Positions 25,864-62,598 of a DNA stretch of 64,000 bases are shown here, in pieces (position 1 is the first letter of the stretch; every line of letters starts with the position of its first letter). The notes beneath the pieces are model-generated. The model did not search any database. It saw only the letters and a program-made list of their open reading frames with translations, and was not told the origin of the DNA. The stretch is from Wolfiporia cocos (lineage: Eukaryota > Basidiomycota > Agaricomycetes > Polyporales > Phaeolaceae). The position numbers were made by a program, and so were the translations under genes. Location: positions 806,001-870,000 of the forward strand of contig JACCLO010000007.1 of NCBI GenBank assembly GCA_029448655.1, read 5' to 3'.

Positions 25864-26090
25864 GTAGAGTTTCAGTGCCCCAGATACATCTTTAGAGTGA
25901 ACGCAGATGCATCTAGGCCACTCTAACACGTAAATCATGTGCCAAGTATGTAGACAGATGCATCCAGATACATTTATCATCTATGGAAAAAGACAATGCT
26001 ACCGCAAGGAGTCGAACTCCTGACCTCTGGAAAAGATGGATGGCAGTGCTAGCAGTGACTCAGACCACTTGGCCACAAGGCTTCGTAACG
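25864..26090 (-). repeat. Left terminus of the KDZ element with tRNA-like module
   Basis: Read on the minus strand: an A-box region TGGCCAAGTGGTCTGAGTC (26063-26080), a B-box GGAGTTCGACTCC (~26007-26020), then a tail with AGATGCATCT and the terminal CACTGAAACTCTAC. The head resembles a long-variable-arm tRNA, but acceptor pairing is not convincing. Alone it would be called a tRNA-derived SINE; its partner at 46186-46371 in inverted orientation and the shared duplication argue that it is an element end. Confidence 0.75.
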
Positions 26091-26182
26091 CGCTCACTTA
26101 CAATATGATATGATACGTCGTTACCCATCTCCAAGTCGCGATTCAAGTTATATCTGCTTTACACGAGATGTACGTTATATGT

Positions 26183-26278
26183 GCAGATGCATCTGGTGGG
26201 CAGATGCATCTGGTGGGCAGATGCATCTGGTGGGCAGATGCATCTGGTGGGCAGATGCATCTGGTGGGCAGATGCATC
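26183..26278. repeat. 17-bp minisatellite built on AGATGCATCT
   Basis: Six copies of the palindrome CAGATGCATCT are separated by GGTGGG, a 17-bp unit. The same decamer occurs in the KDZ terminal tails and in a second cluster near the other end (45985-46125). A subterminal transposase-binding array is the likely role. Confidence 0.9.
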
Positions 26279-26503
26279 TACTGTTGGAGATGTATCCCAG
26301 TTCCAAATCAATATATTTACTGAGCATAATACCTCTGTCGGACAAATAGTATATAGCTAAGTGTACAGGAGGTCCATGCAATCTACGAGGCACAGTACTG
26401 AGCTCTTGCGGTACAGACAATCCAATATGATACAGTATGTACACGGCCGATAAATGATGCGTCAATCGAGAGCAGCGCGCACAGCCAAAAATATTGCGGC
26501 TGT

Positions 26504-29463
26504 TCATGGTTTTGGTGATTCGCAGGTGATACACTGTTGCGCGCTGGACTTGTTCCGGACCATGCAGATAGAACATTCCCAATCAGATGTCGCAGATGGC
26601 GGTGCCAGACCAGCGGCAGCCCAGTTAAATCCGGAAACTGGCGGTGGCGGCAACGGAGCAGAGGGGGCGGGTGACGGAGCAGAGGGAACAGAGGGAGCAG
26701 ATGACGGAGAGGAAGATGACAGGGAAGGAGATGTCAGGGACGGACCGTTCGGCCGTGGAGCCTCGCAGACGCTACACTTGACAGCCGAGTCGGGGCTCCG
26801 GAGCTGACAGAGTCCACAGATCCATTCAGGCTGTTTACCGAGAGAGACAGCAGAAGTCGACAGAGACGACGCCATGCACTTCACGAAATCGTAGGCCGGG
26901 AGCGTATGAATCGGGACAGAAGAAGCGAATTGCCACGCCTTCATGAGGCGAGCACCAGTATCGAGAGAAGGGGCCACACACGCCGAGAATTTATACCTAG
27001 GAAGCGCCTCGAGCGGGACCGAAGCCGCACGTTCTAAAGCCTTCGAGTTCATAACAGTTTCTTGTTCACGTTGTTGACCGGAAGTTGACGCGTAAGACGT
27101 GACTGCGTCGCGAGCGAGGGTGGCGGGAGCGTGCACCGGAGTTAAGGGATGCTCCTGGCAGACCAGGTGGGCCTTTGCGGGAGCGTGCGCGTTTGCGGGA
27201 TGCTCCTCGGTGCTGACGGGGACCATAGAGGCGGAGGGGGCGAGAGCGTGCGCTAGTGGGGGATACTCTTGAGAGGGGATCAATTCCGCAAGTTGGGGGA
27301 CGGGAGCGTGCGCCATCGTTGAATCATGCTTCTGGCGTGAATCGGTCTCCTTCTTGCTGTCTTGGTCAATGGTAAAGCTGGTCCGCAATTTGCTGGGCTC
27401 GCGGGGCGCGTACGAGTTGCGCGTGAACGATCGGTCAACGTGAGAACTTGAAGAACTGTTGATGACGGGGGAAGGCAGAAGGGGGGTGACGGCTGGGCCC
27501 GGGACGGGGGCGGGTGTAGGTGTAGATACTGGTGGTGAGGTGGGGGTGTATCACAGTACGACTTACTGTGATACTAGCTGCGGAGCCGCAAGTCTATGCG
27601 CTCTTGAGATGCGCAGGGAGACCCTCAGGGCGACCGGTGAGGCTGAGGCTCTAGCAGACTAGCACGCACAGAAGTAGCAGCAGGCGCATTGGGCGCAAGA
27701 GATTGAGAATCTAAAGGATGAGGATACGTCCTCATCCCTACCGCATTATATACATGACGATGCGCATATTGTACACTAGCTAGCTTGCCCTAAAGAGGGT
27801 CTGTGCGCAGAAGGCGCACAGACGTAACGCTGTAACTAAGTGACGCAGTCATGTGCTACTTGTGACCGTGGTCTACATACCCTTGTCTTATCTCTACAAG
27901 ATCTTATCTAAAAGTCAGGTGACTATGAACGAAAGGAAATGCCACACCGTTCTGTGACAGGGTGCTTGGCCGTGACGGGTGCTCTACAACTTCCATGGGC
28001 TTCGTAACCGGTGCTGATGGTGCGTCGTCCATATTGACGTCGGCGACTTCTGGTGACGGCGAACTATCCAAGTGGCCGTTTGGCGTTGAGCCGATTCTCC
28101 TCTTCTTCGGCTGAGAACCTTCGTTTTCGGCATCCTCTCCATCGTCACTGTCATCCAAACGACGCCGTGTCGACCGCCTTGACTTCTGACTAGAATTCGC
28201 GGCTGGGTTCAGGAACTTCGTGTTAGGATCCGGACGAGACCGTTTTGCTCCCTGCGAATGTGTGAGCTCGTACGCACGATACAGTATTGATAACTTACCT
28301 TCGGGACGGTCGCTTCGATGATCCTCTGCTCCGTAAGTCTTGGCTGTGACTGTTTCGCCCCTACTTCGAGATCCTTCATCTGCTGCCAAGTCCTTTTGAG
28401 TGGACGGAGCAGATCGATATTGTCGACGTCGGGTGTCCGAGCTCCTTCCCACTCGTATGGGTTGTCGACATCAGGCTCCTCGACTGATTTCGTTACTTCG
28501 TTGACAATCTCGATGAAGGCCATGGTCGAAAACATAGGCATCTCAGGGGTCGGTGGGGGATTAGGAGGCGAACGCTCCGGAGGACTCGATACCTCACGTA
28601 CAGAGACAATCGGCGCGGCATCAGGCAGGGGTTGCGAGGGGTCCGGAAGCGATGTAGGTGCAGCGTCATTGTGAGTAGCAACAGCAGAGGTATCAGGGGC
28701 GGAGTCATTCTGAGCAGGAGTGGCGGGACCGAAACAGTCTCTCTGTATAGCGGCGACATCTAGCACGCGGGCTTTGATATTCGCCGTGGCGTTCTTGAAC
28801 CATTCGATTTCAGCCAAAGCTTCGGCGCGGGCTGCCAGGAATTCGGGAGTTTCCACCCTAGGTGGGATGGAATTAGATGCCTTTCGAGCCGCCTTGATAG
28901 CTTCATAATTAGCGAGTCTCTCCTCCCGAATCCACTCAGGTTCAGGCACTTTGAAAGAAGGGTCAGCAAGGGCCACAAGTCAAATTGCAGTACTTACAGC
29001 CTTCCAACTCTTTCATAAGACCTTTAAATGCCATCGTGTCCAGAGCGCCGTCGCCATAATTACGCAAGTTCGCTTCCACAAACGGAGTCATTTTCCCTAT
29101 TGCCCTCAGCTGGTGGAAAAGCGTAACCGCAGGATAGCGCCACTGAAGCCAGTATTCGAATTCATCTTGAGGGCAATCCTCGCTACTGGGAGGCGGGAGA
29201 AACTCCGGAGCCGGCGGTAGAAGTTCGTAAGGAGGGATTTGCAGCTCCTCCGGTACTCTCTGGGGTCGGGTAGCGAGGAAGTTGCAAAAAGGGCGGGCGA
29301 GGCGACAGTGCGGTGCAGGTTGTTCCACAAGTTCGAGTTCCGGCTGAGGGACGTCCTCCATAATAGGCTCGAGCGTGGTGTCGGCGGGTTGTTCCGGGGC
29401 GAGTTCAGGCTGTTCAAGGACGTTCTCGTATTCTCCAGGGACGGCAACAGTAGGTAATTCCAT
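26504..29463 (-). pseudogene. RanBP2-type zinc-finger protein (nucleoporin-like), interrupted by a solo LTR
   Basis: Starts at MELPTVAVPGEYENV (29463). Intron 1 is GTAAGT at ~28990 and joins MKELEG to LPEPEWIREERLANYEA; intron 2 at ~28300 joins EATVPK to GAKRSRPDP. A bipartite basic region QPKKRRIG lies at ~28100. The frame continues across the LTR site, so removing 27549-27959 and one duplication joins HPSRPST to PTSPPVSTP. Then come two copies of a ~43-residue repeat with LPRYKFSA / LPAYDFVK (~26880-27030) and two RanBP2 zinc fingers, WICGLCQLRSPDSAVKCSVC and WECSICMVRNKSSAQQCITC, just before the stop at 26504. Intact length would be about 820 residues. The fingers and repeat suggest a Nup153/Nup1-like protein; no FxFG repeats are seen, so that is tentative. 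It lies inside the KDZ element. Confidence 0.75.
27549..27959 (-). mobile_element. Solo LTR in the RanBP2-finger gene, TSD GGGTG
   Basis: This 411-bp unit is bounded by TATCACAG and CTGTGACA with exact GGGTG at 27544-27548 and 27960-27964. Minus-strand motifs are GCGCACAGACC, CTTTAGGGC, the TATA box TGTATATAATG (~27755) and a 9-bp stem GGATGAGGA-CGTA-TCCTCATCC (~27716-27738). It points the same way as the host gene, so it introduces a stop for the upstream part and a potential promoter for the zinc-finger part. Confidence 0.88.
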
Positions 29464-30360
29464 GCTACTGCCAGCGAGCTGGGACGACGCGTGTCAGTAC
29501 GAGACGTAAATTTGCGGACGTGCAAGATGTGGCCAGGGGTGAAAACGCGCGCGGTTTGTGTCGAAATTTGGATACGACGCGTTTTGCTTCCGAACGACGC
29601 AAATGGGCCGAAAGCGACGCGAAAAAAGCTGTAAACGCGTAGGAAAAACGCTCACCTGGTGACCGCGCTCAACCAATCTCCAAGTGGCTTCCATATATCC
29701 TGCATCTGGCCTGTAATCCTTGTTCGTAATAATCTCCTTTCCCCACGAGAAAAAGTCAGATAAACGTTTGAAGACACGCGTCGAAAAGTAGATGGTTCCT
29801 GCTATTTCGAGTTAGCCATATTCCGAAGTCAAACATACAAAACACGTCACTCACTTCGTAATCGGGGCGTTTGTCCGGGCGAAATTGGGGTAGGACGTTG
29901 TATCTGTGCGACCCACGCGTATCCGAACGTGTTGGTCCGCTCATTGCGGAATGCGGCGCAAGAGTGGAGTCGATCTTTAGAAGAGGCAACCGATGCACTA
30001 CGTATGATAGGATCGAGGAGTCGCTGATCAATTTTAAGACGTTCACGTGTACGATGTTTGCCTGTTATAGGAATACAGACGATCTGCGGTTCGAAATGAG
30101 TATAGCTCAACGGAAGTGCGTAAGGTCCAGAATGCTTACCGTAGATTTCTGAGGTTGCGAGTTCGAATCTTGGAGGGAGCATCAATTTTTGATTGGCCTT
30201 ATATAAGGCGGCTGCTAAGATCTAAGAGTTGGCAATTTTTGGACATCGCAGCTCACCGTTATAGCAAACAACAATATGACCGCACCCATCTGCATGTCTG
30301 TAGAGGTGCTTCCGGCCACACGTAATTGGTCTTTTTTTTTGGCAATGATAATACAACAAT
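29464..30360. other. Spacer between cargo gene and transposase, with tRNA-like boxes
   Basis: No gene supported. At ~30105-30170 (+) there is TATAGCTCAACGG (A box) and GGTTGCGAGTTCGAATCT (B box), but acceptor and D-stem pairing fail, so it is a tRNA relic or an internal Pol III module. A T run follows at ~30186. Confidence 0.45.
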
Positions 30361-30361
30361 T

Positions 30362-33300
30362 TCACTCTCTATCCCCACCCGTGACTTCCGTGTCCGCTAT
30401 CGATACCGAAGACCCAAAATCGCGCTTGCAGACCTCCAGCAATCGCACATATCGAAACGCTTGCCTGCACAGGTTATTGTCAGCATCTATATTTATTCTA
30501 AGGGGAGATACGAACCTCCGAGCATAAGCTGCTCGCCCAGTATCGTTCAATGCAATTTGGCGCTCTGCTTCTTTATTCCACTTTTGCTCATGGTACCGGA
30601 AAAAACGCGCCGTCCGACGCATTTTCTCTTTTACGAGTTCAACTTGCTCTTGCCAGCGTGTCATGCGCGCCTTGGAACGGAACCAGTGCACTCGGACCGC
30701 TGAAGAATCAGTCAGACATTTTCGTCACCCATGAGAATAGAAAACACCTACCGTCCTGGAGATATTCTTTGATGGCCCCCTCCCCCTGTTGTGCCGCAAA
30801 TGATACATCGTCCCAAAGCCACGATGGCTTCCGTCTGCTGTCTCCCACAAGCTGGTCCATTGTGTAGACAATAAACGGTCGCACGTCTTCCGCTTTCAGT
30901 CATCGAAATGTTGGGTCATTCTCCACCATGCCGAGCGATATGAGAGCCCTCCTAGCACTTTGGTAACGTCTGGCTGCTTTATGCGTTGTGAGCATCTGGC
31001 GCCGGATTATTTCGTTCGATTTTGTATTGACTTTCTGTCCCGAGCCCTGCTGTTTTCGTAGACGCAGCGCACGACCCGTAATTAAGTGCGTGCGCACGTC
31101 ATCCAGTGCATCATGTGCCTGGCCCTCGCGCAGCTGTCGTTCAATCTGCGCCGCCGCCTGGAAACGTTGCTGGGTACGTAGCGATGAATCGTACGTGGAA
31201 GGAAGCTCTATTCTCACCGCGCGAATATGTTCCCAGCCATGCCTCTTTGATGTCCTGGCTCCTACATTCGTGCTGCTGCCGCCCGGTGCCTTTCGCTTGT
31301 GCCCTGTTGATATCTTGTCGTCCGAGTTGCCCTTTTCCGCCGAAACCATCGACCCATTATCCCCGCTTTCCGATTCGCACTCTGAAGCCTCGTTGAAGTT
31401 GTCGTCGTCATATCCATCCAGTTCGTCTGCTCCGCACGCCATAGGGAGTTCCTTGCATTCGACACCAGTAGATACCGCCTCGATAGCTTCCTCGACAATG
31501 GGCCACAGATATTGTTCGTTCAGCTTCTGCCACTGCTCCACCCGGCACAAGAAGGTGTTGACCCGTTCCTCCACGTCAGTACTTTCGTAGTCTTTGTCCT
31601 CTGCGTCTTCTAAGATATGCAAGAGATCCGCCCTGAGCACTGTATGAGTATAGACCCATGCATACCAATGTACACGTACTGTAGCTCCTGGACTGTGATA
31701 CCTTCTTGTATTGTACCTACTATTCCACTCACGGCCGTGTTGATCTTGTTTTGATTGAGTGCCGAAAACACTTCCTTCTGTGTAAGCCCTAAATACGATA
31801 TTAGGGAAAGCTCTTCGCCAATACCTATGCCGCACCTTTATCATGCCGCAGCTCGTATGGGTTGCTCATTGCGTTGTGATGCTTCATATCTATGACCCTC
31901 GACAACCAGGCTGTCTCCTCCTCCTGCCAACAAGCAAGCAGAGCCATTCCCCCTTCCCCTTGTGACACACACTCTTGCACTCTGATGAAGTGATCTTCGG
32001 ACAATTTTAACTGTGCGACTGCCTCCTTGAGCTTCTTTGAGAGATCATGTGCTACTATTCTTGTTAGTCATGGAGACTATCGTGAACATAACGATGTGAG
32101 TAAAACTCACAGATCGAATGAACGCGTCGTATGTTCATGTCAGAGTAATGGTCGTTGATGACATCGTGCCGGTGACCAGGAGTCATTTCGCGCGTTCGCT
32201 GGGCGAGAGCATTCAACGCAGCCCAGATCCGCTCTGGAGCCTCGCCATCTGTCATGCCCATGCCCGGTTGAAGGTACAGTGATTTGAATATACGACACTT
32301 TTCGGTATGTGCTCCCCCATGCCATTTGCCCACGACACGTCTCGTCTCCGGAAATTTCGCCGTCTTGATAGATGTATAATCAGCTAAACGTTCGGCGATC
32401 TTGCTCATACGCTTGTCAAAGTTTATTCCGTATTGACAATTGATGTCGTATGACGACACATGAAGCGTCAGGTCCATCCATGCTTGTAGGCCAGACAGCA
32501 TCGCAAAGTCAACATTGGCGTATCTGTAAATTTACGTCAATTATGCTCATGGGATGCGCAACCATGAATACCTTTCTCCTTTTTGTAGATCCACTGAGCC
32601 CCCCGGTAGTACAAACATGTGGCGCGCACAGGACAGACCAATTGTTCCGGAGACCTTGTCCCAATATCCCCCGTAGCCCATGGCGCCAAATTTGTGGCAG
32701 GTCGTTAACTGAGAAGATATGTGTTTCAGAATGTTGCATGCACGCAAAAAACACCCACTTCCCGCTTTGGGGGCCCTAGCGTTTTTTGAAACCTCGTAAA
32801 GTCGTCGGAATGTGCGTGGTAAGCCGCTCCCAGACTGAGTGCAGCATCATCTTTGTTGCCCGGTTTCTGTTTCAGGTTTTGATGGAAATTACCGTCCACT
32901 GTGTGGAACAGTGCATCAAGATACCTGCACTGCGTTCAGGGTAAAATCTGTACGATGATATATGCACATACCATTGATCCCGAGGTCGCTTCTTCCACGC
33001 TGGATCCATGTTCATGTCAATTTGTGGACATGCAGGACATAGCACCGCGAGGGACCCAGATGGTAAATTACGGGCGGGTCGTACTCCCGCACGCTTAGTC
33101 GCGTGCAGGAAGGCAAATTCTCGTTGCGAAACCAGAAATTCGCGATACCGATCCTGAAAAGGTTAGTACAGGCATCACCCATGTAGAAATCACCCACCGT
33201 TACTTCATGCATGCATGCATTATCTGTCGAGTGTCGTAGGTATAACATGAAATCGTATGCACTCAGCTGCCCTTGTAGTGATAGCAGATGGAACTGACGC

Positions 33301-34236
33301 ATGACATCTAGTGTGAATGCCGTGGCTGGATTCTCCCATGACGCCGGAAACAGTCCAAAGGCGATGAGCTGTAGTGAACGTGGCTTGGGTTCTAAGCGTT
33401 CGTCGAGAATGCAGGAGCAGAAGTGGACCTCTATTTGAGTGACTCCCCGGCTGTGTACTATTGTCATAAGACGACTGTCAGTTGAAGCCTCCGGACAACG
33501 ACTGCCGTCATGTCCCAGACGGAGTACATATCCCAACGTCGACAAGTCTACGCGTTCCCAAAACCCTAGAGAGGTGCTCCACTTCTCTAATCCGTGGAAT
33601 GGAGAAGAGACATGTGCCGACATTATGCATCCCGTTCATAGCGGTGCGCTATGGAAGCAATCCCGGCAGCGGTATAAATCGGTAGCCTCATTGACAACCC
33701 CTTTGAATGTGCATCGCCCACAGAGGACATCGTCCCTGGCAGGAGACTCTCGCGCGAGCAATGAGTCTTGCGCTAATGCTGCCCACTTGTCGAGGAATTG
33801 AGACATCCGAATTGAAGGGGGCTAGCACTCTGATCGTCAGCGCCATAGTTGCCTGGAGGTGCATTCCACATACAATCGTGTTGTTCACCTTTGCTTTCTT
33901 CACCTGTATAGCCTCCTCTGCAGTTTCCATTGAAGCCGTAGTTGCTGATGAGCCAGTGTTCACATCGAGCTCAGCTTGGATGGCGGACCGTTCAGCTTTG
34001 GGTGAGGCGTTGGGCCGGACACTTGCAAAACCATCCAGATGGCGGGTATCAGGGTTTTCAAGTCCGCACCGACTACGTTGAGCGACATCTATGGACATGT
34101 GCTGCAATCCAAGATCCCGAGCTATCTGCTCGAGACTTCTTCTTGCCAGCCATGTCCGCACGAGGGTCAGCGCCAGAGGATGGTAGGATTCTGAGAAAGT
34201 GCGGCGCCTACAAACTTGACGCCAAACCGCATGCAT
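30362..34236 (-). pseudogene. KDZ transposase with CxC2-like cysteine cluster
   Basis: N-terminal CxC2-like cluster: DVLCGRCTFKG, LYRCRDCFHSAPL (~33630-33750), then SPFHGLEKW, LGHDGSRCPEA and FCSCILDERLEPK-type residues. KDZ core: GNFHQNLKQKPGNKDDAA (~32800-32880), GLSCARHMFVLPGG, LQKGERY joined by a short intron to ANVDFAMLSGLQAW, VSSYDINCQYGINFD (~32415-32460), KWHGGAHTEKC and GMGMTDGEAPERIWAALNAL (~32210-32290). C-terminal block: LREGQAHDALDDVRTHL and YQSARRALISLGM, then a further exon WFRSKARMTRWQEQVELV. In-frame TGA codons at 33636-33638 (in the cysteine cluster) and 30900-30902 argue that this copy is inactive. The exact start is uncertain; upstream frame 33850-34236 probably includes the first exon. 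Confidence 0.88.
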
Positions 34237-35444
34237 GCATAATTGCTCACTTTCATGGACTGAGTGTCAAGTATGCTCGTACCTCGAGTGGCAGCTCAAC
34301 ATCGAGCTGTCCCAATCTGAGACGTCAATAGGACGTCCAGGTCTTGTGCGTCCTTGGTGTAACTTACTTATATCAAGCCAGTCTCCCCCTAGACTCCTCT
34401 GTACCCGGTACCAGTGTACCCATCGATGCTGCTTGCTCTACGGCTTCTCTTTCCCTCTCATAATCACACTTGTACTCAATCTTCAGCTCAATGCTCCAGC
34501 TGTGTGCAGATCCAGTCAAAGGAAAAGCAAGGCTTCGCCGTTACTACCGACGTCTTTGTTCGTCGTGCATTCACCTTACTACCCACCCACACGCTCTTGC
34601 CTCTCGTCACATGCACGGACCGATATCTATATCATGCAACATGCATGGTCGCTCGCTTTCTTTGTCTCGCCCGGTGAATCACAGGTGAGCTTTATCTGAA
34701 GTGCCAGTTAGCTGCTGGTGTACTGCTAAGTTCGTCGAAATGCACTCAATAGGCTGTAGATACTGTCCTGGCGAAGCTCCTCGTGGCTCATGACAAGCTC
34801 GAGGAATTGAGCATAATCATTGACGAGCCAAACTTCATCAACTTGCCCGAAGTCGAAGCGATACCACAGGATTTACACCAGTACCATGCGCTGTGCAAAC
34901 TATATCGGCAGCGCGGTGAGCACCAAAGACTGTTGGAGACGTGGCCAAATAAGCAGACTCATTACCTTTGCTCGCGTGGTCATCATCTCGGTGAGTGGCA
35001 TCCCAACCTTGACCGTAACGCCTGCCATGGCTGCTGCCCTTACTCCGCACTTCTCGCCACACACCCACCATCGCGTCACACATACCCAAACCCTTCCCAA
35101 GTTCTCCTCCATTCGTACTTACCACAATTTAGCTCACAGTCCCTGTTGTGCTCCCGCCGCTCGTTGCACGCACGGACCAATATCTATATTATCTCATGCA
35201 ATTAGCAGCAGACATGCTCGCACCTCCAGTGGCAGTCCAACATCGTGCCTCACCAGCACCTGGGACCGTGTCCGCTGCCACCCATGCTCTGATCACAAAC
35301 TTACAGCGCATGTATTCATGGAACAAATTTTTTGGTATAAATACAACGCACTATGGCCATGTTTCCGTACATAGTATGTATATTGTGTCAAAGTCATGTC
35401 GGTATTACTTGGACCTCACGGGCCTCCTCGCTTGCGCGTTCTGT
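34237..35444. other. Spacer with a diverged ~900-bp-apart duplication
   Basis: Blocks at ~34270-34320 (CTCGTACCTCGAGTGGCAGC) and ~34610-34650 recur in diverged form at ~35210-35260 (CTCGCACCTCCAGTGGCAGT) and ~35165. Between them a short open stretch (34783-34990) includes HDKLEELSIIIDEPNF and DLHQYHALCKLYRQRGEHQR and may be a coding remnant. No family recognised. Confidence 0.4.
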
Positions 35445-37943
35445 TCACAAGTGACGTTTTAGACTGGATGGAGGATGTAGAGGTACGGTGGGCAGTCTCC
35501 CAAACATCCGGCGAAAGCTCCGGCAATAAAAGCATATAACCTCCTTCTCGAACCGTTCGAATCCCGAGTTATCGATATTCTGCCCTGCAGGCATCCGAAT
35601 ATGACCGCTCAGTGGCCAACAGGTCAGAATGCGAGCCCATGCTATGACATGCTTACGACGGACTGTTGGGTCGTCGTGTCCAAACAAGTCTGGCACCTCC
35701 TCTACCTCCCACATTGGCCTCATCGCTCCAACATCGCTCCAAACACTAGTGATGAGTAGCTGCCTCTCGTGAGCGCTGGAGTCATCCATGTACAGCCCCG
35801 CCGCCAGTCGTCGATCCGCAATCATGAGTTCCCATCGGAAACCGAGCACAGAGAGCTCCCAGACTACCTCTGCCCATAAGCGTTCGTCACTGTCTGCAGT
35901 TGCCCGAGGGACAACGCAGCCCGCCCATGTCGATCCGTTGAGTTCGCTTTGATATGGTACAAACTTGCCATGTACCCCAAAAATCACGTTAATGTCGAGT
36001 CGTGAGGCTGAGCGCTTCATTGCACGCTGATCCCCTGTTTTAGGGCCCGACATCCGATTGCCGTCGTCAGGTGGAAGGGGGAGACATGCAATTTCTGCCT
36101 CACTCGCTCTGGTCCGGATGTCGTTGTGGGGTTGAAATGGGATTCGCCAATACTTGCCATCAAGGACTATCCGCCATTGTCCAGTCGTGAACAGGACTTG
36201 GCCATGAGCAGGAGGGTCCAGCGCTCGTATCAGGCACCATTCCCGAATCCGCAGCCAGTTGTGCATTTTCGCACCCATCACAGGGCCGGTAGAGTAAAAC
36301 AGGTGGACAGGTGGGAGTGGATACTCTAGAGGCTTTCTCGGATCGGGGGTCCGTAGATCCGGTTCCATTGCTAATGCCACATTCCAACCTGGGCATTCAG
36401 GAGGTAGCCAATGTGGCTTGTCGTTCGGTTGGTTGTCGTTTCGTTGGGGAGGCTGTGGCTTCGCCGACACCGATGCCTTCACCTGTGTGGCCGGACCGTG
36501 CTGTGCAGTGGCTGCCTTTATTGTTTTGCTCCTTTTACTCGGCCTCAGTACTAGGACAAGTGCATCAGTGTGTTAACCTACAGCGATCTTAATAAAACGG
36601 CTACCTTCACTGCCCTCACTATCGCGTTTAGATTTGTCGTGGTGGGGTACGTCATTTGCTATATTGCTCGAGTCGGCGCCATCGTCATTGTCTGGTAGCG
36701 CTGCTGTCTGTATCACGCGCAGGGTGGGCTGACTGGAAATGGAATATCGGCGAAGGTGGTGTAACAGGCTCTCCGACGCAAGATCAAGTAGATCTGTGCA
36801 ACGCCAGGCCGGCGCTTTGAGAACATATTGCCCGTGTGTCATGTTTACGTCCATATCAAAACAAGATGAGGCTTTCACCGTCTCAGCGAATTGGCCAATG
36901 CGTGTGTCTTGAGTTAGAGTATAGAGAGGCCGCACATACCATACGGGCACTCCGATACGATACATAGTTTCCACAATTGCTGGACGGGCTGAAAACACGC
37001 CGCGGAGCGGCAACACGGCATTACTGGCGTTGTATCCAGTGATTCCGATGTTGAGACGGGGAAGAATGACATCTATATACGTACACCAGGCCTCTACCTC
37101 CAGCAGCAGACGTTGAACCTCGCGGAACCATAGCGCACAGTCGAATGTCGTCAATGGCAGCTCTTGCAGCTTGTTGAAGGCTCGCTTCAATGTGGCACAA
37201 AGACGCTGTACATACACAGCACGCCTGACCTTGCCCACTTTGACATTGTGGCTATCCGCACTATCGGGTATGTAATGCTTGTTAATCGTGATGTCCACAA
37301 CAGCGCATGCTTCCATGATGGCAGTGCTTATGCGCTTCACGAGACTCTTCTTGAGATATCCTACGCCTGCCCCAGGTATAGTAGTAGAGACCTGGTGATT
37401 GTCAGAGAAATGGTTGCCTGGTATCATACTCAATCCTACCTCTACGTCCGTGTACTTGAATTCTATCCATGGCACGTTCACATCTGCATATTGCCAGAGC
37501 ACACCACCTGTGTCAATCGGGCCATTCCCTGATTGCAATAGACGTGGGTTGCAGGGTGCAGCCAACAAGTGAGGCTCAATTTGGTCATACAGCTGTGGCC
37601 ATTTGGTCAACTCAAAAGCGCCCAGCATTCCGTCTGCATTATAGCTGAATTCCTGGGTTGGATCGTGAATAGGCGGCTCGGGGACGATACTCATGTTGGG
37701 TGAGGAAATGTAGTATTCGACCCCTTCTTCCAGCGGTGCGGGATATCGAGCCAACACCCGACAATCAAAATAACGCAGCTTCGCGTCCATGGGAATTAGA
37801 GATACCGCCTCCAGCAGTTGATCATGGCTCTGGTACGGTTCTGCAGATGAAACCAAAGGCACCCCAGTCTCAGGCGGTGGTGAGGGAGGTAATGGAGGTG
37901 GGGGATCAATCGGCTCAGGCGGCTGCGAAGAGAGCGATGCCAT
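35445..37943 (-). CDS. Uncharacterised Agaricomycete multi-copy-type protein (KDZ cargo)
   Basis: Starts at MASLSSQPPEPIDPPPPL (37943) and runs 450 codons to an intron (about 36585 down to 36485, CACACAG acceptor). It continues KASVSAKPQPPQRNDNQ to the stop at 35445, about 790 residues with no internal stop. Distinctive segments: LRYFDCRVLARYPAPLEEGV, GGVLWQYADVNVPWIEFKY, GVFSARPAIVETMYRIGVPV with WYVRPLYT, CPGWNVALAMEPDLRTP and MWEVEEVPDLFGHDDPTVRR. The layout resembles hypothetical proteins I recall as numerous in mushroom genomes. No catalytic motif, signal peptide or membrane segment is evident. It is apparently the most intact gene in the KDZ element. Function unknown. Confidence 0.75.
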
Positions 37944-37989
37944 GCCAGTACGAGTTTGGGTGTCTCTGAACGTAAGGAGCGCATCAGAT

Positions 37990-38780
37990 TACGTCCCTGA
38001 CCACACCGCCTGCGTGCGCAAGCTCGTCGACCTGCGTAGCGCCAACCACCGTACAGCTCAGCATCGCTGCTGCCGGGTATGTAGACCACTCTTGAAGCCG
38101 TTCACTGCTTTGCAACGGCTTAGAGCCACTGCTTGGCAAACGACGGCCGCTCTAGGAGCAGGCATTGGGAAACGACGACGACGGCCGCTCTAGGAGCAGG
38201 CATCGGGAAACGACGACGACGGCCGCTCTAGGAGCAGACGCCTGCGCACGGCGGATTAAAATGTACAAACTCACAATTTTGCTGATGCCGGATGGGCCAG
38301 CGTGGATACGGAGAGCGGCGCGATGATGGCAGGAGACAGGCGAGTGCGAGGCATGCGAGTTGGGGGCAGTCGCGGGAGAAGCACAGTCACGAACGGATGT
38401 AGCGGACATAGCGGCATGCGTGTCTTCGTGAGAACACGATCATATTTGACGCGACGCGCTCTTCACGGAACCTCATCATATATGCATCAGCCATAAGCAG
38501 GTAAGACCGGACAAGCGCACGTAGTGCCCAACCAGTTGTGGTACTAATACGATGGAAATGCAGCCTTCATGTGCCCGACGAGCGCAGGCGTCTGCTCCTA
38601 GAGCGGCCGTCGTCGTCGTTTCCCGATGCCTGCTCCTAGAGCGGCTGTCGTTTGCCAAGCAGTGGCTCTAAGCCATTGCAAAGCAGTGAACGGCTCCAAG
38701 AGCAGTCTACATACCCGGCAGCAGGAGCTGTACGGTGGTTGGCGTAACGCAGGTCGACGAGCTTGCGCGCAGCTCCCACA
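37990..38780. repeat. Large inverted repeat with a tandem ~36-bp unit
   Basis: The left arm (~38005-38245) and right arm (~38575-38775) are inverted copies (AAGCTCGTCGACCTGCG ... GGCCGCTCTAGGAGCAGGC). The left arm has three copies of GGCCGCTCTAGGAGCAGGCA with GGAAACGACGACGAC, the right arm two. A unique ~330-bp centre separates them. It could be a foldback element or an arm-to-arm conversion product; no clear TSD seen. Confidence 0.75.
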
Positions 38781-39255
38781 CGGTCATTGTCCGGCGGTGC
38801 TTGAGGCAGCTGTCCCGAGGATTGGTATTTTGAAGTTATGGCAGACGCGCCTTGCGTGCCCTTTCTGGAGGCTCAAGAGAGTAGCGGGTGACAATTCACG
38901 ATCGACATGTCAACGCGATCGGACAGATTTCTGGCATGCAAACGCTCGGACGTCATAGGCACAGCTTTTGCTATCCGGCCTCCAAAAACGCCTAAGACTA
39001 GGTTTGGGATCACGTGAACCACCAATCGGTTCCGTGGGGCCCCCGCAGGTTCTTGCTTGCTTTCCGGGGCACTGTGTACGATTTATATCACTATAAATTA
39101 TCATATACGTTCCACTATAGCGTGAAAAGCGACAGGTGCTGTGAGAAAATGGGCATAAAGATGTACACTTACTCACGTGCTCTTGTACAGATTTCTTGCG
39201 TTTTGCCAACACAGCGCGCGTGAATCACGTTTCCTGTCCCCTCTAACGAGCTGCG

Positions 39256-39927
39256 ATGCATTTCCGTAGGTATCTGGAAGCACTAGATGAGATGAAGAAT
39301 GTACGTGACATTCGTTATGGTTCGAGAAAATGAGGTTAATATGAGTCTATGCATGTATAGCACGACGATGAAATCTACAGCGAGGTTACACGGGCTGCGC
39401 GTTGCGATAGGATCGTAGGGGAAGACACGTCGGACGACGAAGATCATTCCCAACGCGACGCAGAAGATGAGGTCAAGGAATATGATGACAAGAGCACTGG
39501 GGAGCGTCCTGTAGAGGACAACGAGATCCACGACAACACGCATAGTGCGTGCGACAGGCCAGAATTCGCCCACATTGTCGCACTCGCTCGCATGATCGTC
39601 GCGCAATGGCCCCCGGATAACGACACCGTTGACCCACGAAGTGATTCCGCCGCCCACGGAGCTTCGGCAGCTGAACTACATGCTAAGGCTCCTGCAAAGC
39701 GAACCCGTAAAAAGCACAACGCTGTACCCGTGCGCCGGAGTTTGCGTCTCAGGAGGCCGTCAGCACGGCAGTTGGGAGAGGACGGGTGAGTGATCTCAAT
39801 TCACAGATGGTGCCCACATCTCAACATCAGGATCATGACACTTAGGATCGAGATGATGGCAGCGTCACAAAGGGCTACACAGAAGCATGCAGTTGTTCTG
39901 AAAGAGAGAGGGCGGCATCATCGTTGA
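39256..39927 (+). CDS. Small uncharacterised acidic/basic protein (KDZ cargo)
   Basis: Exon 1 39256-39300 encodes MHFRRYLEALDEMKN. A GTACGT...TATAG intron leads to exon 2 from 39361: HDDEIYSEVTRAARCDRIV, an acidic stretch EDTSDDEDHSQRD, HIVALARMIVAQWPPDND and a basic AKRTRKKHNAVPVRRSLRLR tail. A GTGAGT intron (39786-39805) probably joins a last exon ending at TGA ~39927. The basic end suggests a nuclear or DNA-associated protein; no family recognised. Confidence 0.5.
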
Positions 39928-40150
39928 CCGCGCTGGTGCCAGGTGTCAGACGGGATTGACAACTTATGGTTTTTATGCCGCATGACCACGGTCGAGAGCA
40001 GTCTAGTACTGAGTTCTGGAAATGCTGCGTTGTCTCAACCCGCATGCATCTGCTGAAGGAAGCTGCTCTTTATGCCATGTTCTGGGAAAGGAGAACGTGA
40101 AGGGGATCTGAGACCACGAAAGAGGTCAATGTTAAGCTGAGACTGGAGAT

Positions 40151-40700
40151 ATGAACGCATCTATCACATCAGCATGTTCGGACTCCGCAGATGCATCCTC
40201 ATCAGCATCTCCCACCCACTGCCATCCCATCGCCGCCACTGGTAGCTATTGCACCGCAACCTCCGCTTCCTCAGCCTCTAGGTCCTGTGGACGAAACACA
40301 GTTTTCGACCGCGTGAAGCGTGCTCTTGATAATACGGAGACATCCAACGAGTTTTTGAAACTCGTCATTCGCTTTACGCAATACATCACTGACACTGCGC
40401 GGCTAGTTCGCGAGAGTCGGTCGTTCCTCGGTGACGGGGAGCTTATGGCCCAGTTCAGAGAGATTCTTGGCTGGTACGAATGGCGAGACCGAATAGCGGT
40501 CGCAGATGATGTCGGGAACTTCCTACATAGCCTGGTACACCTCCTGTCCTGCGTCACGACCGTAAAGACGGGGAGCTTATGGCCCAGTTCAGAGAGATTC
40601 TTGGCTGGTACGAATGGCGAGACCAAATAGCGGTCGCAGATGATGTCGGGAACTTCCTACATAGCCTGGTACACCTCCTGTCCTGCGTCACGACCGTAAA
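40151..40700 (+). pseudogene. Sin3-like PAH domain fragment with internal duplication
   Basis: The open frame contains VFDRVKRALDNTETSNEFLK, LVIRFTQYITDTARLVRESR and SFLGDGELMAQFREILGWYE. This has the pattern of a Sin3 paired amphipathic helix (PAH3-like) followed by the segment that follows PAH3. Sin3 is a histone-deacetylase corepressor of well over 1000 residues, so this is a small piece. A 134-bp tandem duplication begins at 40433/40567 and breaks the frame because 134 is not a multiple of three. It lies inside the KDZ element. An independent PAH protein encoded by the element is the alternative. Confidence 0.5.
40433..40700 (+). repeat. 134-bp tandem duplication
   Basis: Two nearly identical units start GACGGGGAGCTTATGGCCCA at 40433 and 40567; the only difference noted is CGAATAG versus CAAATAG near the middle. 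High identity implies a recent event or gene conversion. Confidence 0.93.
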
Positions 40701-40864
40701 TCTTCTTCAGCACGCGCAAGTGCACGCTCTTCCCAACTCCATCGAAATTCGGTTTGAGGTTAAACGGTCATGTGTCGCTGTCTCGCGTGTGACGACGCTG
40801 CAGGAGATATTGAAATCAGGTAGCCAGCACCCTGAGGACACATTGTGGGCTGCAGCAAGTCGAT

Positions 40865-41344
40865 TTGCCACTTATTGCCAAATCCAGATTGTCTGTCGGA
40901 CACTTGGGCCGTGCACGTCACTATCTCGCACCCGAGATTCTTGACATCTGCCATTCTGCGGAACTCATGGGACACATCAAGTGGCGACCGGCCGAACTGG
41001 AGTTCCTGCGTCAACAGTACACCTCGACGGAAGTTTGGCAGCTTTTGGGGCCTGGTCCTAGGTACAATTTTGCAAAAGCGGCACGGGCGATCCACAAGGG
41101 GTTTCTGCTCAACTTTGGTCAGCCATACGCAGCTGAAACAGGAGATGAATTCCTTGCGCATCAGAAGTTGACCAAAACGCCTTCGATACGAGCTGAAATG
41201 AAGCCATGGCCTGCGGAGACACCTGACGAACATCGAACGCGACTTGAGGATCTTTTCGATGTATTTATCTTCAATGCGCTGACACCTGATGAATTTTCCC
41301 TGACGTACTTGACAGCGCATTCACAACTGGTGCAAGAACAGTAA
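40865..41344 (+). CDS. Unrecognised open reading frame (KDZ cargo)
   Basis: About 160 codons with ordinary protein composition: YLAPEILDICHSAELMGHIK, WRPAELEFLRQQYTSTEVW, NFAKAARAIHKGFLLNFGQP and EHRTRLEDLFDVFIFNAL. It overlaps nothing else, follows the PAH fragment on the same strand and may be its continuation or an exon of the next gene. No ATG-defined start and no family assignment. Confidence 0.45.
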   Translation: MPLIAKSRLSVGHLGRARHYLAPEILDICHSAELMGHIKWRPAELEFLRQQYTSTEVWQLLGPGPRYNFAKAARAIHKGFLLNFGQPYAAETGDEFLAHQKLTKTPSIRAEMKPWPAETPDEHRTRLEDLFDVFIFNALTPDEFSLTYLTAHSQLVQEQ

Positions 41345-41393
41345 TTCAAACCGTCACTGCGCGGGCACTGCCCGCGCACTCGCCCTACCGGTT

Positions 41394-44300
41394 TTGGACG
41401 ACACCCGTGCTGTATGCGCGTGGGACGTATTCTGGGAATGGCTGAAGTCTGGACGGTACGACCGGTTAATTCAGGAAAAGAAAGCTACCATTGAGGGGAA
41501 AAATGGGCTGGCATGGACTGCGTGGGCTTCGGAAATATATGGACTACTACCTCAAGAAGAGCTCACCGCTATCAAGGAGGAAGTGGGTCAACACAAAAAG
41601 GAAGGTGCCAAGGAACAAGGCTCAGACATTGACTTTGAAATTAGCCCAGGGGAGTTCATACGAGCAAGGTATGCTTTGCTCTCCTGGATAAAAGAGCGGA
41701 GAGACTGACTACTGAGCCACTTTAGGAAGGCCGCGGCACTGGCCGATGGAGTGAGGGCAGTTACTGATCTCTGGACGAGGGAAACTGGCTGGGTGGGTAT
41801 GGTGATGCTTACGGGCCTGGATGGGAGTGGTGTCTTGCAAACATTCGTGTAAGGTGCTTTTGCTTCATATCATCATTTGCTGAACGATAGAAGGACAGAC
41901 ACAATTTTGGATGCGACTCGAACGATCAAACCTTTGAGGACATTCCCGTGAAGGAGGCTCAGATATCGTCTCGCCGCTTGCGTTACACGTTGTTTGGATT
42001 CGGGCAAGACATTTTTGACCGTACGTGTATCTTATTGTGCGATGCGACCAAGCTGACAGCAGGACAGCCCGACGAACGATGACCTACGGGCCCGGCGAGG
42101 ATCCACCTTTGGAAGCGAACGGCTCTACAGGTGGCACCATCATCGCTGAGCAAGGCGAAGGGATAGATGGTAGTGGAACGACATCTGTAGTATCAGGGGT
42201 AGCCGATGAAGAAACGATCTCGGTCACTAATACTAATAGAGAACCTGAAAACAGTCTGGGGATGGCCGGGGAGCAGGTTCCATCTCGGTGCGTGTTGCGA
42301 ACTCCACATCTTCTGTTTTAGAACCATCGACTGACATAATTGCCTCTTGTATAAGAAGAGGGTCAGATGAGGGAACACATGAGCAGACTGCGAGTTCAGA
42401 GGAATCCGTGCGGAGCGAGCCAGGAGACGGTCTTCATACCATGGCAAAGAGTGATGACAGATTCCCCACCCCCATGAGCAATGGAACCCCAGTTTCGACG
42501 ACCAGCAGCTCGCCACTGCCCACGAAGTCAAAGGTCACGGCGGTGGCGGCCGGATCGCACTTGAGACCTGTACAGTCACAAAAACGGAAGCGTCAAGCTG
42601 AGGGCAAGGATGAAGCGTTGACTGCTGAAGCTATACACAGGGGACGACCTTCTCGTGTGCGAAAACCAAGTGCCAAGGTCCGTGAAGCAGAAGAGTATGT
42701 CACACTCATCATGCGATCACGCAAATTACTAACATGGTCTATTGCAGGGGTGGACAGCAAACTACATGGCGTAGAATTACGTACAAGAAGGGAGTAGCTA
42801 GTGCGCCTGAAAAAGGAAGGAAATAGCGTGAAAGCTGGTTGTTACTGAGGGTCCGTAGCCTAGACGTCGATGTTGCACGCAAATCCTGAGGACGAGAGTA
42901 GTTATACCAAAGAGGACATGGCAAAGACTGAGAAATACCGGGAATAAGAAATTCCCCCAATTCTTGTGCTGCTCGTGCTCGCGTGGGCAGTCATGGTAAG
43001 CGCTGCCAAAGTTTTCACCTCGCTCTTACATCCCCCCTGTTGGCCTGCTTGCACAGTCCATTCTCCCTGCACCATGAGAGGCACGTTGGGCGAATCGAGG
43101 TCTAAGTACCCCCTACGCCTCTGGAACCTTGCGAAATGGAATGCTGAGAAACGCCGTCCGGTGATCCCTGCCGTGTGTCCGACATGCGAAGTGGGTTCAG
43201 TCGGCGCACAGGTCGTTTACAAGGAGGGTGTAGCAGGTTTTTGGCAGTTTTTTGTGAGTGACATCAGCTGGGATATGATAACGAGGGAGAGCTTACTGCG
43301 TTCGTGCATACAGTGTAGACTTCCGAAGGAGGTCTGCGGCAAACATTGGTACCCACAAGAGCAGATATTCCCATCGTCGCAACTCACAGCCGAGATGGAG
43401 AAGATCCGCTACGACGCAGCTCAGCAGGCGGCTGCCATTAAGGCTGAAAAGGAGGCTGAGAGAGCCAGGAAGGCCGCGGAGAGGGGTGCAAAAGCTGAGC
43501 AATGGAGGCTTGCAGCCCAGCTAAGGAATATACAAGCAGAGGAGAAAAGGAGAGCTAGGGAAGAGCAGAGGGCGGCCAAATGCGCTGAACGTGAGCACAA
43601 GAAAGAAGAGCGCGAGGCACAGCGCATGCTCAAGGCTGTTCAAAATGAGCTGGAGCGTGCTTCACGAACTCACGGCAGTACTGACCCTGTCTCGCTGAAC
43701 AGCAATCGCTACCCGAAATTTGAGCCACAGAAAGCGAGCCACGCTGACTTCAATGCGTATTTGGCGGAGCTCTTCAAGTCTGATCCTGAGGTAAGACTTA
43801 TTTTAAATCAGTGGATTTGCAGAGTGGACTAATATAACCTCCCTGAGGATAATGACAGCGGCGGCGAGAACGAGCCAGACGACGACGACAAAGGCGGCGA
43901 TGCCGAAGGCGGAAACCACGAAGACGGCAACAATGAGTCAGGCGGGGATGACAAAGGCGGGGACAATGACAAGCGTGGTGATGCCGGCAAGAGCAGCAAC
44001 GACAAGGGAGAGGATGACAAAGGCGAGGACAAGGGCGAGGACAACAACCAAGAGGTCACAGGCGATGGCGATGGGGCGGCCGAGAAGGCTGAATGGCGGT
44101 TTATACGTGTTTGTTTCTGGGGTCCAGAGGTATGACATTGGTTGTGTTCCAAGTTGAGCATGCTTAACGTGATCTGTCACAAGAAAGTACGTGACTACTC
44201 ATTTCCTTTATTATCTATGGTTTCCCCTACGATACGGGTCCAAGGGTCCCCCTACAAAGCCCTTAAGGCTTAGCGCCAGCCAGCGCGTCCATTACTGGGC

Positions 44301-45530
44301 GCGCCGGACTTGTGGTTCACGCCGAATACAGGCACGTGACCACGACGCGTAGGCAGGTGACCGCGTAGGTGGCACCTGATCTTACGATCACGACACCGCG
44401 TCGAAGCGCCCCCTTAACCTGGGCCGCTGACGCCTTGTCAATGATTCATCGGCGGCCGCCATTACTGGCCGGCCGCTTACTAATACATAACAACGGTCTT
44501 AGCAACGCCGATAGGGCTGCGCACGGACCCTTACGTTAGGGCAGGTAGTTACTGAGTAGTTACCATGCCTCTCATGTATATATATCGTAGGTCTGGGACA
44601 CTAGGTCCTCAGACTTAAGATTCTCATCTAGGGCTTAGGCCCGACTTGATACACCCTGCCTGCTGAGTGCCCACCCTGCCTCGTCGACAACGCCAATACC
44701 GACGCCTCCTCTGAGGGCTTGCCTCTATAAATACGCACTTGGGTTCTCCCTCGACATAGCCGAGTCAAAGGCTACGCCTAGGGGTTTAGGAGTATAGCAC
44801 AGCGAGTCATCTTGTGATATGATCACCAGGATGGCACGAAGGGGAAGGCAATCGTAGTGAGGGTGGTCGAGGGCAATGTTATCCTGAGACACATGCCCTC
44901 AGTGCTCGAATATTTCGGATTGACACTGACGTCGCCGATTAAAGTTTGGAGTTCCCCATCAGGAAGTTGGATCACTGATTACAGAGTGACGTCGGACATT
45001 CCTGTCTTTTGTGACACGGTGCTCTTGATCAAGTCGCATGGGCTTCAAAGGTAAATGGTCAAAGCAGGTCTATTGCCAGTACTAATGTTAGGTTTGTGCC
45101 GATAGATGTCCAGGAATCGAAATAGAACAGCTAGCACTACATCTACCCCCTGTCCCGCTGCGTATCGCCAAGGAGATTCTGGATGCAGGCAAGCATGCAA
45201 GTGCTACTGGCCAGATTACATGATCTGACAAGTGCTCGAGGCGCCGAGCAAAAGGTCTACGAGGGTCGTGCAGTTCAGACAAACAGGTCTGGGGCTATCA
45301 TCGTCGCCGATACTGCGGACGCGTCATCATCTGCCAAAAAACGGAGGATCCACGCTAACAGACACGTTGACTATGACAGCCCCATCGACATCAGCAGCGA
45401 TGACGAGGCACTACACCGTCCGAAGAAGAAAATTAAGTTAGTTACGTCAAGGCGGACTACGCTGACGGAGGCATTGCCGTTTGCGAGCGAAGTTGAGGAG
45501 AATGGGCGGACCGTAATCGTTCTGGACTAA
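41394..45530 (+). CDS. Uncharacterised multi-exon protein with coiled coil and acidic region (KDZ cargo)
   Basis: Exons read: WDVFWEWLKSGRYDRL...SPGEFIRAR, a GTATGC...TTTAG intron, then KAAALADGVRAVTDLWTRET and GWVGMVMLTGLDGSGVLQT, and RRLRYTLFGFGQDIFD. A Ser/Thr-rich part with an AT-hook-like RGRPSRVRKP (~42640) precedes CPTCEVGSVGAQVVYKEG and a CIQCRLPKEVC cysteine pair. Next come a long Lys/Glu/Ala coiled coil (43400-43660), an acidic Gly/Asp repeat (43850-44090), FIRVCFWGPE, an intron holding a solo LTR, GTKGKAIVVRVVEGNVILRH and a C-terminal PIDISSDDEALHRPKKKIKL ending VIVLD at 45530. Whether this is one gene or two adjacent ones (break near 42800-42960) cannot be settled here. The family seems expanded in Agaricomycetes. 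Function unknown. Confidence 0.6.
44175..44819 (+). mobile_element. Solo LTR inside a presumed intron, TSD TGATC
   Basis: This 645-bp unit runs TGTCACAAGAAAG to ATCTTGTGATA with exact TGATC at 44170-44174 and 44820-44824. It has GCGCACGGACC, GTTAGGGC, the TATA box TGTATATATAT (~44575) and a stem-loop GTCTG-GGAC-ACTAG-GTCC-T-CAGAC (~44591-44616). It is co-directional with the surrounding gene and lies between a GTATGA donor (~44130) and an ACCAG acceptor (~44829). Confidence 0.88.
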
Positions 45531-45984
45531 CAATTTCACTAGCAATACATGGTACGTGCTACACGTCGACATCTCTAGAGATATATACACCAACATTGGT
45601 TTCTTTAGGGATGAAAGGCAAAGGGGGGTTTATAACGCATGACTACAAACCGCAAACATTCGGCAGTACGGCTGCCGCCGTGGAGCTCATCTCGTGCTAT
45701 GCATAATACAATGAGTTTACGCAACATTTTGCGCTCGCTCAACTGTCTGATGCATTATATGGCTACATGTACGTCTCTCACTGTCGTCCATGACATCCAA
45801 ACACATAGAAATGTACGTCTACAACTGTCGGCATCTGTGCGAGTAACACTCTGAACAAGTACAAATTACGGTGGATTAACAGCACAAGCGACGGGCATTA
45901 TGCTTGAGTACATCGTGTTCCTGCTTGCTAGATGAATTACCGTTATTTTACATTTATATTTTTGCCTATGTGTATTTGCATCCG
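45531..45984. other. Spacer, nothing recognised
   Basis: Between the last cargo exon and the right-end repeat cluster only short unsupported frames occur. Confidence 0.5.
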
Positions 45985-46125
45985 AGTCATAGGAATATGC
46001 ATCTGCGGATGCATCCCGTGTTCACGACGAGATACATCTGCGGATGCATCTTATATCCACGAGATGCATCTGCAGATGCATCTCTTCTCCAGTCGTACAT
46101 GCATCTACGATGCATCTGCTGATTT
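45985..46125. repeat. Cluster of ATGCATCT/AGATGCATCT palindromes near the right KDZ end
   Basis: At least eight imperfect copies (GCATCTGCGGATGCATC, GAGATGCATCTGCAGATGC, CATGCATCTACGATGCATC) lie within 140 bp. This mirrors the 26183-26278 array near the left end, at a similar distance (about 250-320 bp) from the terminus. Confidence 0.85.
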
Positions 46126-46185
46126 ATTGCTCATTTACATACACCCTCTGATCTTATAAGATATTCTTTACGTCGATATACAAGC

Positions 46186-46371
46186 TCACATGGTGCAGTT
46201 GGTATAGTTACTGTACTCGTTATTTCACTTGGCTGTTGGTTCGATTCCTGCAGCTCGTTTGTTTTACTCCTCTTTAATGCCTTTCCGGGCGTGTGGCTGG
46301 CGCTTACCTTAGAGTGCCCCAGATGCATCTGCGGTGTCTCTAAAGATGCATCTCTGGCACTGAAGTCCCTC
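46186..46371 (+). repeat. Right terminus of the KDZ element with tRNA-like module
   Basis: An A-box ATGGTGCAGTTGGTATAG (46190-46207) and B-box TTGGTTCGATTCCTGC (46236-46251) are followed by a tail AGTGCCCCAGATGCATCTGC, GTCTCTAAAGATGCATCT and the terminal GGCACTGAAGTCCCTC. Its tail is the inverted counterpart of 25864-25930, although the tRNA-like heads differ. Confidence 0.78.
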
Positions 46372-46481
46372 CTCTAATGATCAGTTGTATGTCTTCTCGA
46401 ATCTGGGAGAGGTATGTGCTGCAATGACAAATGTAGCCTAGAGCGCCTGGAATAGAGTACAGTGTGCATATACTCACTCAA

Positions 46482-60143: not shown

Positions 60144-60476
60144 ACCATCATGTCCGAACAAGCACCCGCTTCACCCATCATTGTAGAGCCCCCTGCTCCA
60201 ACCTCCCCTAACATAGTCCCTGCCTCTCAAACCACCATCTAACGTTCAGTTACCCCTGTAGAAACTAAAGACATCCGTCTCAACGATTAAACCTACCCTA
60301 CCATGATCTCTCTGACATCGGCAACACCCTGGCTGGTCAAACCGCTCACCTTGCAATCTAACCCCTCCATGCTTTTTCCACTGAATTCCTCTCTGCCCAC
60401 TCTCACTTGGAATATGAGAATGCCCTTCACTTTTACACCATGTATCTACATTGAAACCTCTGTGTCATCAGTGACG

Positions 60477-62162: not shown

Positions 62163-62598
62163 CAGTGACGGCATCGAACACTTCGGCTGCCGTGGCCTCT
62201 GCACTCATCCACTCCTACCCCACCTGTCTGAGGACCTTATGTACCTCAGCCACTGGATTGACGATGTCATCTCCAGCCATGAACCCATCTCAGACGATGA
62301 AGACAACATGGATATTCATCCGTCCCCCAACCGGCCCCCTCTCACAGGACCTCCCACTCCTCTACTTCCCCCCTCATCCTCAATCCCATTCCCACACTCC
62401 CCAATGAACCCCAATTCACCTCCAACTCCATTTCCCATGAAGTCATCACCATCCTAGGTCCTATCCTCCAACAATTCACCACTCACCTTGACACTTTCAA
62501 AACATGCCTCAACAACGTGGCCCACCCAACCACCTTCATTACCACACCACCAAAGCACAACACAACACACAAGCCCCCCAATGTGCCACCCACCAAAC

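Follow-up and report, generated by a model that had tools for sequence, protein, structure and literature searches.

The DNA analysed here, which we call the window, is a stretch of 64,000 nt from Wolfiporia cocos (contig JACCLO010000007.1, positions 806,001 to 870,000), and its positions 25864–46371 are occupied by a complete transposon of the KDZ superfamily, 20,508 bp long and referred to below as the alpha element. One terminus, of the GTAGAGTTTCAGT type, lies at 25864–25926 (plus strand) and the other, of the GAGGGACTTCAGT type, at 46309–46371 (minus strand); together they form an imperfect terminal inverted repeat (TIR) of ~62 bp whose arms, 25871–25926 and 46309–46364, are 86% complementary over 56 nt. 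Directly outside them stand two copies of the 8-mer CTCTAATG (25856–25863 and 46372–46379), so that both the inverted ends and the 8-bp duplication named in an initial annotation of this DNA are present. By itself the 8-mer is weak proof of insertion, as it has a third match at 22646 and 2.2 occurrences are expected per window. The insertion is nonetheless real, because the genome searched, that which holds the window (label G000; 64.43 Mb, 76 contigs), contains a paralogous site on contig C3 in which the flanks of the window (97% and 96% identical) abut and overlap by exactly one CTCTAATG, at C3:1332576–1332583. A third paralogue of the flank, on contig C6, is also without the alpha element and carries, 21 bp off, a 716-bp miniature inverted-repeat transposable element (MITE) of KDZ type with the duplication TTCTCGG. 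These C3 and C6 flanks support the repeat nature of the surrounding DNA, which the initial annotation had taken for a Tnp2 element, although the Tnp2 assignment itself falls below the Pfam cut-off (PF02992, E = 0.003).

A genome search with the first 237 bp of the element finds this end complete at four loci and, interrupted by an insertion, at one more; all five loci also have the last 282 bp. Paired by their ends, these are the window copy, two further full-length copies (c2 and c3), and two derivatives with internal deletions, 2,558 and 719 bp long. Copy c2, on contig C12, is 21,112 bp long and matches the window copy over the whole element at 98.9% identity of aligned bases; c3, on C23, is enlarged to 45,349 bp by nested insertions and is 97.4% identical to the window copy over aligned bases. 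The four other copies with alpha ends all have target duplications of 7 bp (CCGCTAT, GCACCCG, CCCACCT and CCCTAGA), which makes the 8 bp of the window copy an exception, or else a 7-bp duplication with an additional C. Given the copies, each with its own target duplication, and the empty site, it is confirmed that 25864–46371 is one KDZ transposon that has moved as a single unit, with the boundaries originally proposed for it.

The window copy has a number of changes of its own. A nested insertion of 411 bp (27549–27959) is absent from copies c2, c3 and c4, an insertion of 645 bp (44175–44819) and a 134-bp tandem duplication (40433–40700) are likewise private to it, and it has 8 bp fewer than c2 and c3 at position 34112. 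Because the 20,508 bp include the two insertions and the tandem duplication, the shared element is ~19.4 kb. Copy number of a minisatellite with a 39-bp unit (28011–28059) varies among the three full-length copies, as do lengths within a long inverted repeat at 38016–38768 (arms 38067–38199 and 38592–38724, 95% complementary), which lies between the genes called G3 and G4 below and holds tandem units of 38 bp.

For the gene content, 20 of the 73 element open reading frames (ORFs) of at least 90 aa were scanned against Pfam. The KDZ transposase that had been annotated is indeed encoded, in several exons, at 30900–33635 on the minus strand: its KDZ domain (PF18758) is matched at 7.4e-33, with 114.5 bits against a cut-off of 26.6, and the adjoining CxC2 cysteine cluster (PF18803) at 4.2e-31. 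Its five segments are free of stops in the window copy, and copy c3 has 4 stops. Also borne out is the RanBP2-finger protein, in the form of part of a RanBP-type zinc-finger gene, G1 (26504–27550, minus strand; PF00641, 1.7e-9), whose frame is broken in the window copy by the private 411-bp insertion. G3 (35445–37943, minus strand) encodes a large accessory protein in one frame with one in-frame stop that has the same position in all three copies and is read as a short intron; it has homologues in Wolfiporia, Grifola and Amylocystis, and the Grifola protein aligns with it end to end. The fragment described as Sin3-like corresponds to an ORF at 40136–40630 (plus strand) that overlaps the private tandem duplication; a PAH repeat is present there, barely above the threshold (PF02671, 21.7 bits against a cut-off of 21.3). 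G4 (40814–41708, plus strand) is common to alpha and beta elements, the latter being described below, and has no database homologue at 1e-3. G5 (42948–45530, plus strand) matches a protein of Wolfiporia cocos MD-104 with 92% identity across 45% of the query; the private 645-bp insertion lies between its exons as set by the Wolfiporia cocos protein. No function could be assigned to any of the accessory proteins.

These genes had been annotated as cargo, and the same genes are indeed carried by c2 and c3, all three full alpha copies holding the accessory set. Copy c3 harbours, inserted 114 bp in from its left terminus, a second KDZ element of autonomous size, termed beta and 17,816 bp long (G000:C23:4445000–4462815), with the ends GAGGGACTTCAGT and ACTGAAACTCTAC and the duplication ATCTATG. 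By tblastn it encodes a KDZ transposase, with segments matching that of the alpha element, together with G3 (35–46% identity), G4 (29–42%) and G5 (26%), in a gene order that differs from that of the alpha element. Across the genome, a search with G3 gave 25 rows, of which 18 form 12 main loci and 7 short fragments were set aside; G4 lies within 5 kb at 12 of the 12 loci, and a KDZ match lies within 14 kb at 11, the exception being C6:104924. Viewed from G4, 12 of 21 loci are within 16.1 kb of a KDZ match and 9 are not. G3, G4 and the transposase thus travel together in most cases. A third group of G3–G4 loci, 56–59% identical to alpha G3, is found at C67:2664683, C6:870803, C6:104924 and C3:886316; three of these are near a KDZ match. 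The termini of this group were not found, and among 63 gamma- or delta-type ends none lies at the four loci.

One could suppose that the accessory genes are chance passengers, picked up by a single element and then multiplied along with it. Neither G1 nor the PAH ORF is found in the beta element (tblastn, 1e-3), and several genes are broken in the window copy, both of which would fit such an origin; the recurrence of G3, G4 and G5 in a deeply diverged KDZ element and the linkage of G3, G4 and KDZ matches throughout the genome speak against it, and we regard it as improbable. For these same two reasons the "cargo" looks like an accessory gene set of this KDZ lineage, common to its diverged elements, which is a better reading of the genes than the term under which they were first described.

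The ends of the element also occur far beyond its own copies. The motif GAGGGACTTCAGT has 555 occurrences in the genome, against 2 for the reversed control, and TAGAGTTTCAGT, the motif of the opposite end, has 604 against 16. On contigs C1 and C2, a GAGGG end is faced by a TAGAG end within 1.2 kb in 49 of the 69 cases listed (3 in a same-orientation control), and 47 of those 49 pairs are 662–721 bp apart. Inspection by eye found a 7-bp duplication at 7 of 10 MITE loci; at 20 sampled loci the duplication is 7 bp at 9, 8 bp at 1 and 6 bp at 1, and none was found at 9. The hundreds of short repeats with these ends are thus the family's own ~0.7-kb MITEs, mostly with 7-bp duplications. The initial annotation had held that its reading would fall if the two ends belonged to unrelated short repeats; hundreds of short repeats do have them, but these are relatives of the element. 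The corresponding alternative, a chance assembly in which two unrelated short MITEs happen to enclose ordinary host DNA, could draw on the fact that the element's ends are sequences of abundant MITEs. It has next to no probability, as three loci with differing duplications have the same 19.4 kb enclosed by the same ends and the empty site has one CTCTAATG; empty site and copies together rule it out.

To sort the ends into subfamilies, 60 of 100 listed GAGGG ends were picked in fixed steps: 34 are beta, 17 alpha, 5 gamma and 3 delta, and 1 was left unassigned. The two end types remain distinct from each other in every subfamily seen, and the two ends are therefore probably non-equivalent. Inside the termini of the alpha element are arrays of the palindrome AGATGCATCT, on the left at 26185–26279 (a 17-bp tandem that varies between copies) and, as AGATGCATCT-type repeats, on the right at 45997–46084; counted over 600 bp from each end, the palindrome occurs 7 times on the left and 4 times on the right. 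The beta counterpart is AGATTAATCT, a two-base change of the same motif, and to judge from these letters the difference looks like a shift of transposase specificity.

Between the termini and these arrays, each end of the alpha element carries an A box, a B box and a T-run in the order of type-2 RNA polymerase III (Pol III) genes, directed outward. The left unit (25987–26075, minus strand) consists of the A box TGGCCAAGTGG and the B box AGTTCGACTCC (10/11), with a T-run 16 nt past the B box, and the right unit (46191–46265, plus strand) of the A box TGGTGCAGTTGG and the B box GGTTCGATTCC (11/11), with a T-run 13 nt past it. A strict scan finds 7 units of this kind in the window, whereas 30 simulated sequences give an expectation of 0.13 and never more than 1. 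Two of them are at the alpha ends and one is internal to the element (30103–30170, plus strand; present in c2 and c3 too, with no Rfam tRNA match). Two more belong to a 695-bp beta-subfamily MITE (59122–59816), which has an outward A/B unit at each end, and one to an end of a gamma-subfamily element (60476–62162, duplication CAGTGAC), which has an outward unit at each end, the right B box being GGTTCAATCCC. The gamma element also holds a nested inverted-repeat insertion (60792–61780) with the ends TAGTGTTGTG. The seventh unit, 62637–62690, could be assigned to no KDZ end; TGTCAC occurs nearby, and it may belong to another TIR family.

The association with ends extends beyond the window. In a set of 11 representative ends from four subfamilies (two each from the alpha element, an alpha MITE, a beta MITE, where they are mutually inverted, the gamma element and the nested beta element, and one from delta), a unit is directed outward in 10 and inward in none. 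Among the 60 sampled GAGGG ends it is outward in 44 and inward in 1, and it is present at 18 of 20 alpha-MITE ends. Spacing in the representatives is constant, with 44–59 between A and B boxes and 124–159 from the B box to the terminus, and the T-run follows 11–16 nt past the B box in all of them but one. As controls we used ~54 kb of DNA, leaving out 59100–62900, where the beta and gamma ends and the unit 62637–62690 lie: of 10,432 overlapping scanning windows in host DNA 13 hold a unit, each time that of a single weak site at 17870, and of 3,772 in the element interior 13, each time the internal unit. None of six nested insertions of non-KDZ type has a unit.

No tRNA gene was recognised at these units. 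ARAGORN finds none in the window and none on the ends when introns of up to 60 nt are allowed, Rfam gives no tRNA match at the gathering threshold and, in the end stretches searched, no match to RF00005 even at E up to 5, and functional tRNA genes at the ends were accordingly rejected. A more permissive ARAGORN run, with 65 "genes" called in 14 short sequences, was too non-specific to be used. A fragment of a tmRNA T-arm scored 13 bits, and two RNAs predicted from the ends fold no better than shuffled sequences (z = +1.0 and −1.0). A dispersed short interspersed nuclear element (SINE) was considered and rejected, since beyond the terminal ~63–80 bp the end queries (237 and 282 bp) match only alpha copies among the matches listed. 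The sequences between the boxes are mostly unrelated, with 2 of 36 pairs alike at z > 2.5, and for this reason, together with the want of a match to any tRNA model, what has been kept seems to be the layout of a promoter and not a tRNA.

Cut-and-paste transposition is established for the KDZ superfamily. We consider it quite probable that the element described here is a cut-and-paste KDZ transposon with an accessory gene set, MITEs and outward promoters of Pol III type that probably recruit TFIIIC, TFIIIB and Pol III. To the borders, copies, empty site, genes and MITEs observed, and to the A/B/T units with their orientation and spacing, such a model adds transposase binding, Pol III recruitment and insulation, which we infer from sequence. 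The KDZ transposase would bind the asymmetric ends (TAGAGTTTCAGT and GAGGGACTTCAGT) and the AGATNNATCT subterminal palindromes and would, on insertion, leave a target duplication of 7 bp (8 bp in this copy); the accessory set, G3, G4, G5 and others, moves along with it, and the same ends let the element or its relatives drive the ~0.7-kb MITEs. The units at the ends most likely recruit TFIIIC, TFIIIB and Pol III, and this would leave the termini poor in nucleosomes and protected from silencing, giving the transposase easier access and allowing less host methylation to spread into the element.

It is tempting to go one step further and to propose that in this lineage Pol III promoters of tRNA type have become a functional part of both ends, as self-insulators whose outward units recruit TFIIIC and Pol III and hold the termini open in a heavily methylated genome, and which are retained in MITEs as a cis requirement for mobility, but we put this forward as a tentative idea that is rather unlikely to hold in full. 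In Wolfiporia hoelen, the probable host, methylation is given as 15.09% on transposons and 1.28% on genes in the available excerpt of PMC9503964, and the accessible text of PMC12730594 has other KDZ elements capturing TET/JBP genes, which are thought to aid escape from methylation. The principal competing explanation is that the A and B boxes are passive relics of a captured tRNA-derived, SINE-like sequence, inherited by all subfamilies without function. Several units do look tRNA-like, the nested beta unit even having a perfect T-arm, which favours a relic, as does the decay of the boxes in MITEs at the rate of their surroundings. Yet in 34 of 36 pairs the sequence between the boxes has diverged to background (z ≤ 2.5) while the boxes and T-run, with their orientation and distance, are still found in four subfamilies, and B boxes containing CpG would be expected to have been lost along with the rest of a relic. 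We give the relic a serious chance, though one that falls short of an even one.

Several further observations weigh against the model. The unit at 30103–30170 sits inside the element and not at an end; the GAGGG end of the nested beta element, the sole representative end without a unit, also fits the relic; and in two of three delta copies the B box reaches only 8/11. Within MITE subfamilies the boxes are not conserved above their surroundings (B box 0.941 versus 0.947 in beta, 0.888 versus 0.902 in alpha), a decay that is expected of dead copies and yet is no help to a claim for Pol III. Compared descriptively, CpG retention in the B box (0.94 in beta, 0.82 in alpha) is at the high end of the other CpGs. 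All units may also descend from one ancestral pair. Between the three full copies, the ratio of nonsynonymous to synonymous polymorphism (pN/pS) is near neutral for the transposase segments (0.63–1.22) and mildly low for G3 and G4 (0.32–0.55), so that the selection signal among them is weak.

In the open-licence literature, no Pol III or tRNA-like units in KDZ elements, MITEs or TIR elements were found among the matches listed, the main text of PMC12730594 does not contain the word "tRNA", and for DINE-1 Pol III sites are reported absent in the part of the source available. The units have the parts of a type-2 Pol III gene (A box, B box, T-run) in common with tRNA-derived SINEs; unlike SINEs, they are internal to TIR elements with 7-bp duplications and paired outward, and alpha units occur in alpha copies only, among the matches listed. 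In yeasts, tRNA genes and TFIIIC sites act as chromatin boundaries. Insulation through B boxes is the mode that, by analogy, may apply here, with the difference that the yeast boundaries are host loci whereas these would be transposon ends.

Among named KDZ lineages, Kyakuja (Kojima, 2025; PMC12730594) resembles the window element in its KDZ transposase, 7-bp duplications, occurrence in mushrooms and large elements with accessory genes, but in the excerpted description its termini are CA..TG and it has no TIRs, whereas the family here has GTAGAG..CCCTC termini and inverted repeats of ~62 bp. No TET/JBP domain, such as TET-bearing KDZ elements encode, is matched by Pfam in the 20 ORFs scanned of the 73. 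Zisupton and Dileera, as outlined there, share a KDZ transposase, TIRs and an 8-bp duplication with the window copy; their duplications are 8 bp, whereas those of this family are mostly 7 bp, with 8 bp in the window copy only. Judged by duplication length and termini, we therefore place the family in KDZ and in no named lineage, since 7-bp duplications are combined with inverted repeats and with other termini. The active KDZ1, KDZ2 and KDZ3 of Cryptococcus, on the portion of PMC12810828 available, are also fungal elements with inverted repeats and 4–8 bp duplications, like the inverted repeats and 7–8 bp found here; compared by description, they are ~9–11 kb long with 139–241 bp repeats and a CxC1 domain, against ~19.4 kb, ~62-bp repeats, a best match to CxC2 and several accessory genes.

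The literature, as far as the excerpts at hand represent it, is mostly on KDZ transposases with TET genes or on elements of 9–11 kb, and the element described here adds a large fungal KDZ transposon known in its full anatomy, together with its empty site, its MITE families and a diverged relative that has the same gene set. If functional, the paired outward units of Pol III type would show a DNA transposon dealing with host chromatin in a new manner, one that can be tested directly with public small-RNA, methylation and chromatin immunoprecipitation data in a fungus that can be cultivated. As a simple signature, the units can also serve to trace related elements and to correct the annotation of tRNAs and SINEs in genomes of this kind. 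Elsewhere in the window, upstream of the element, a Helitron fragment lies at 12190–14856, with Helitron-like N-terminal and weak PIF1 helicase domains.

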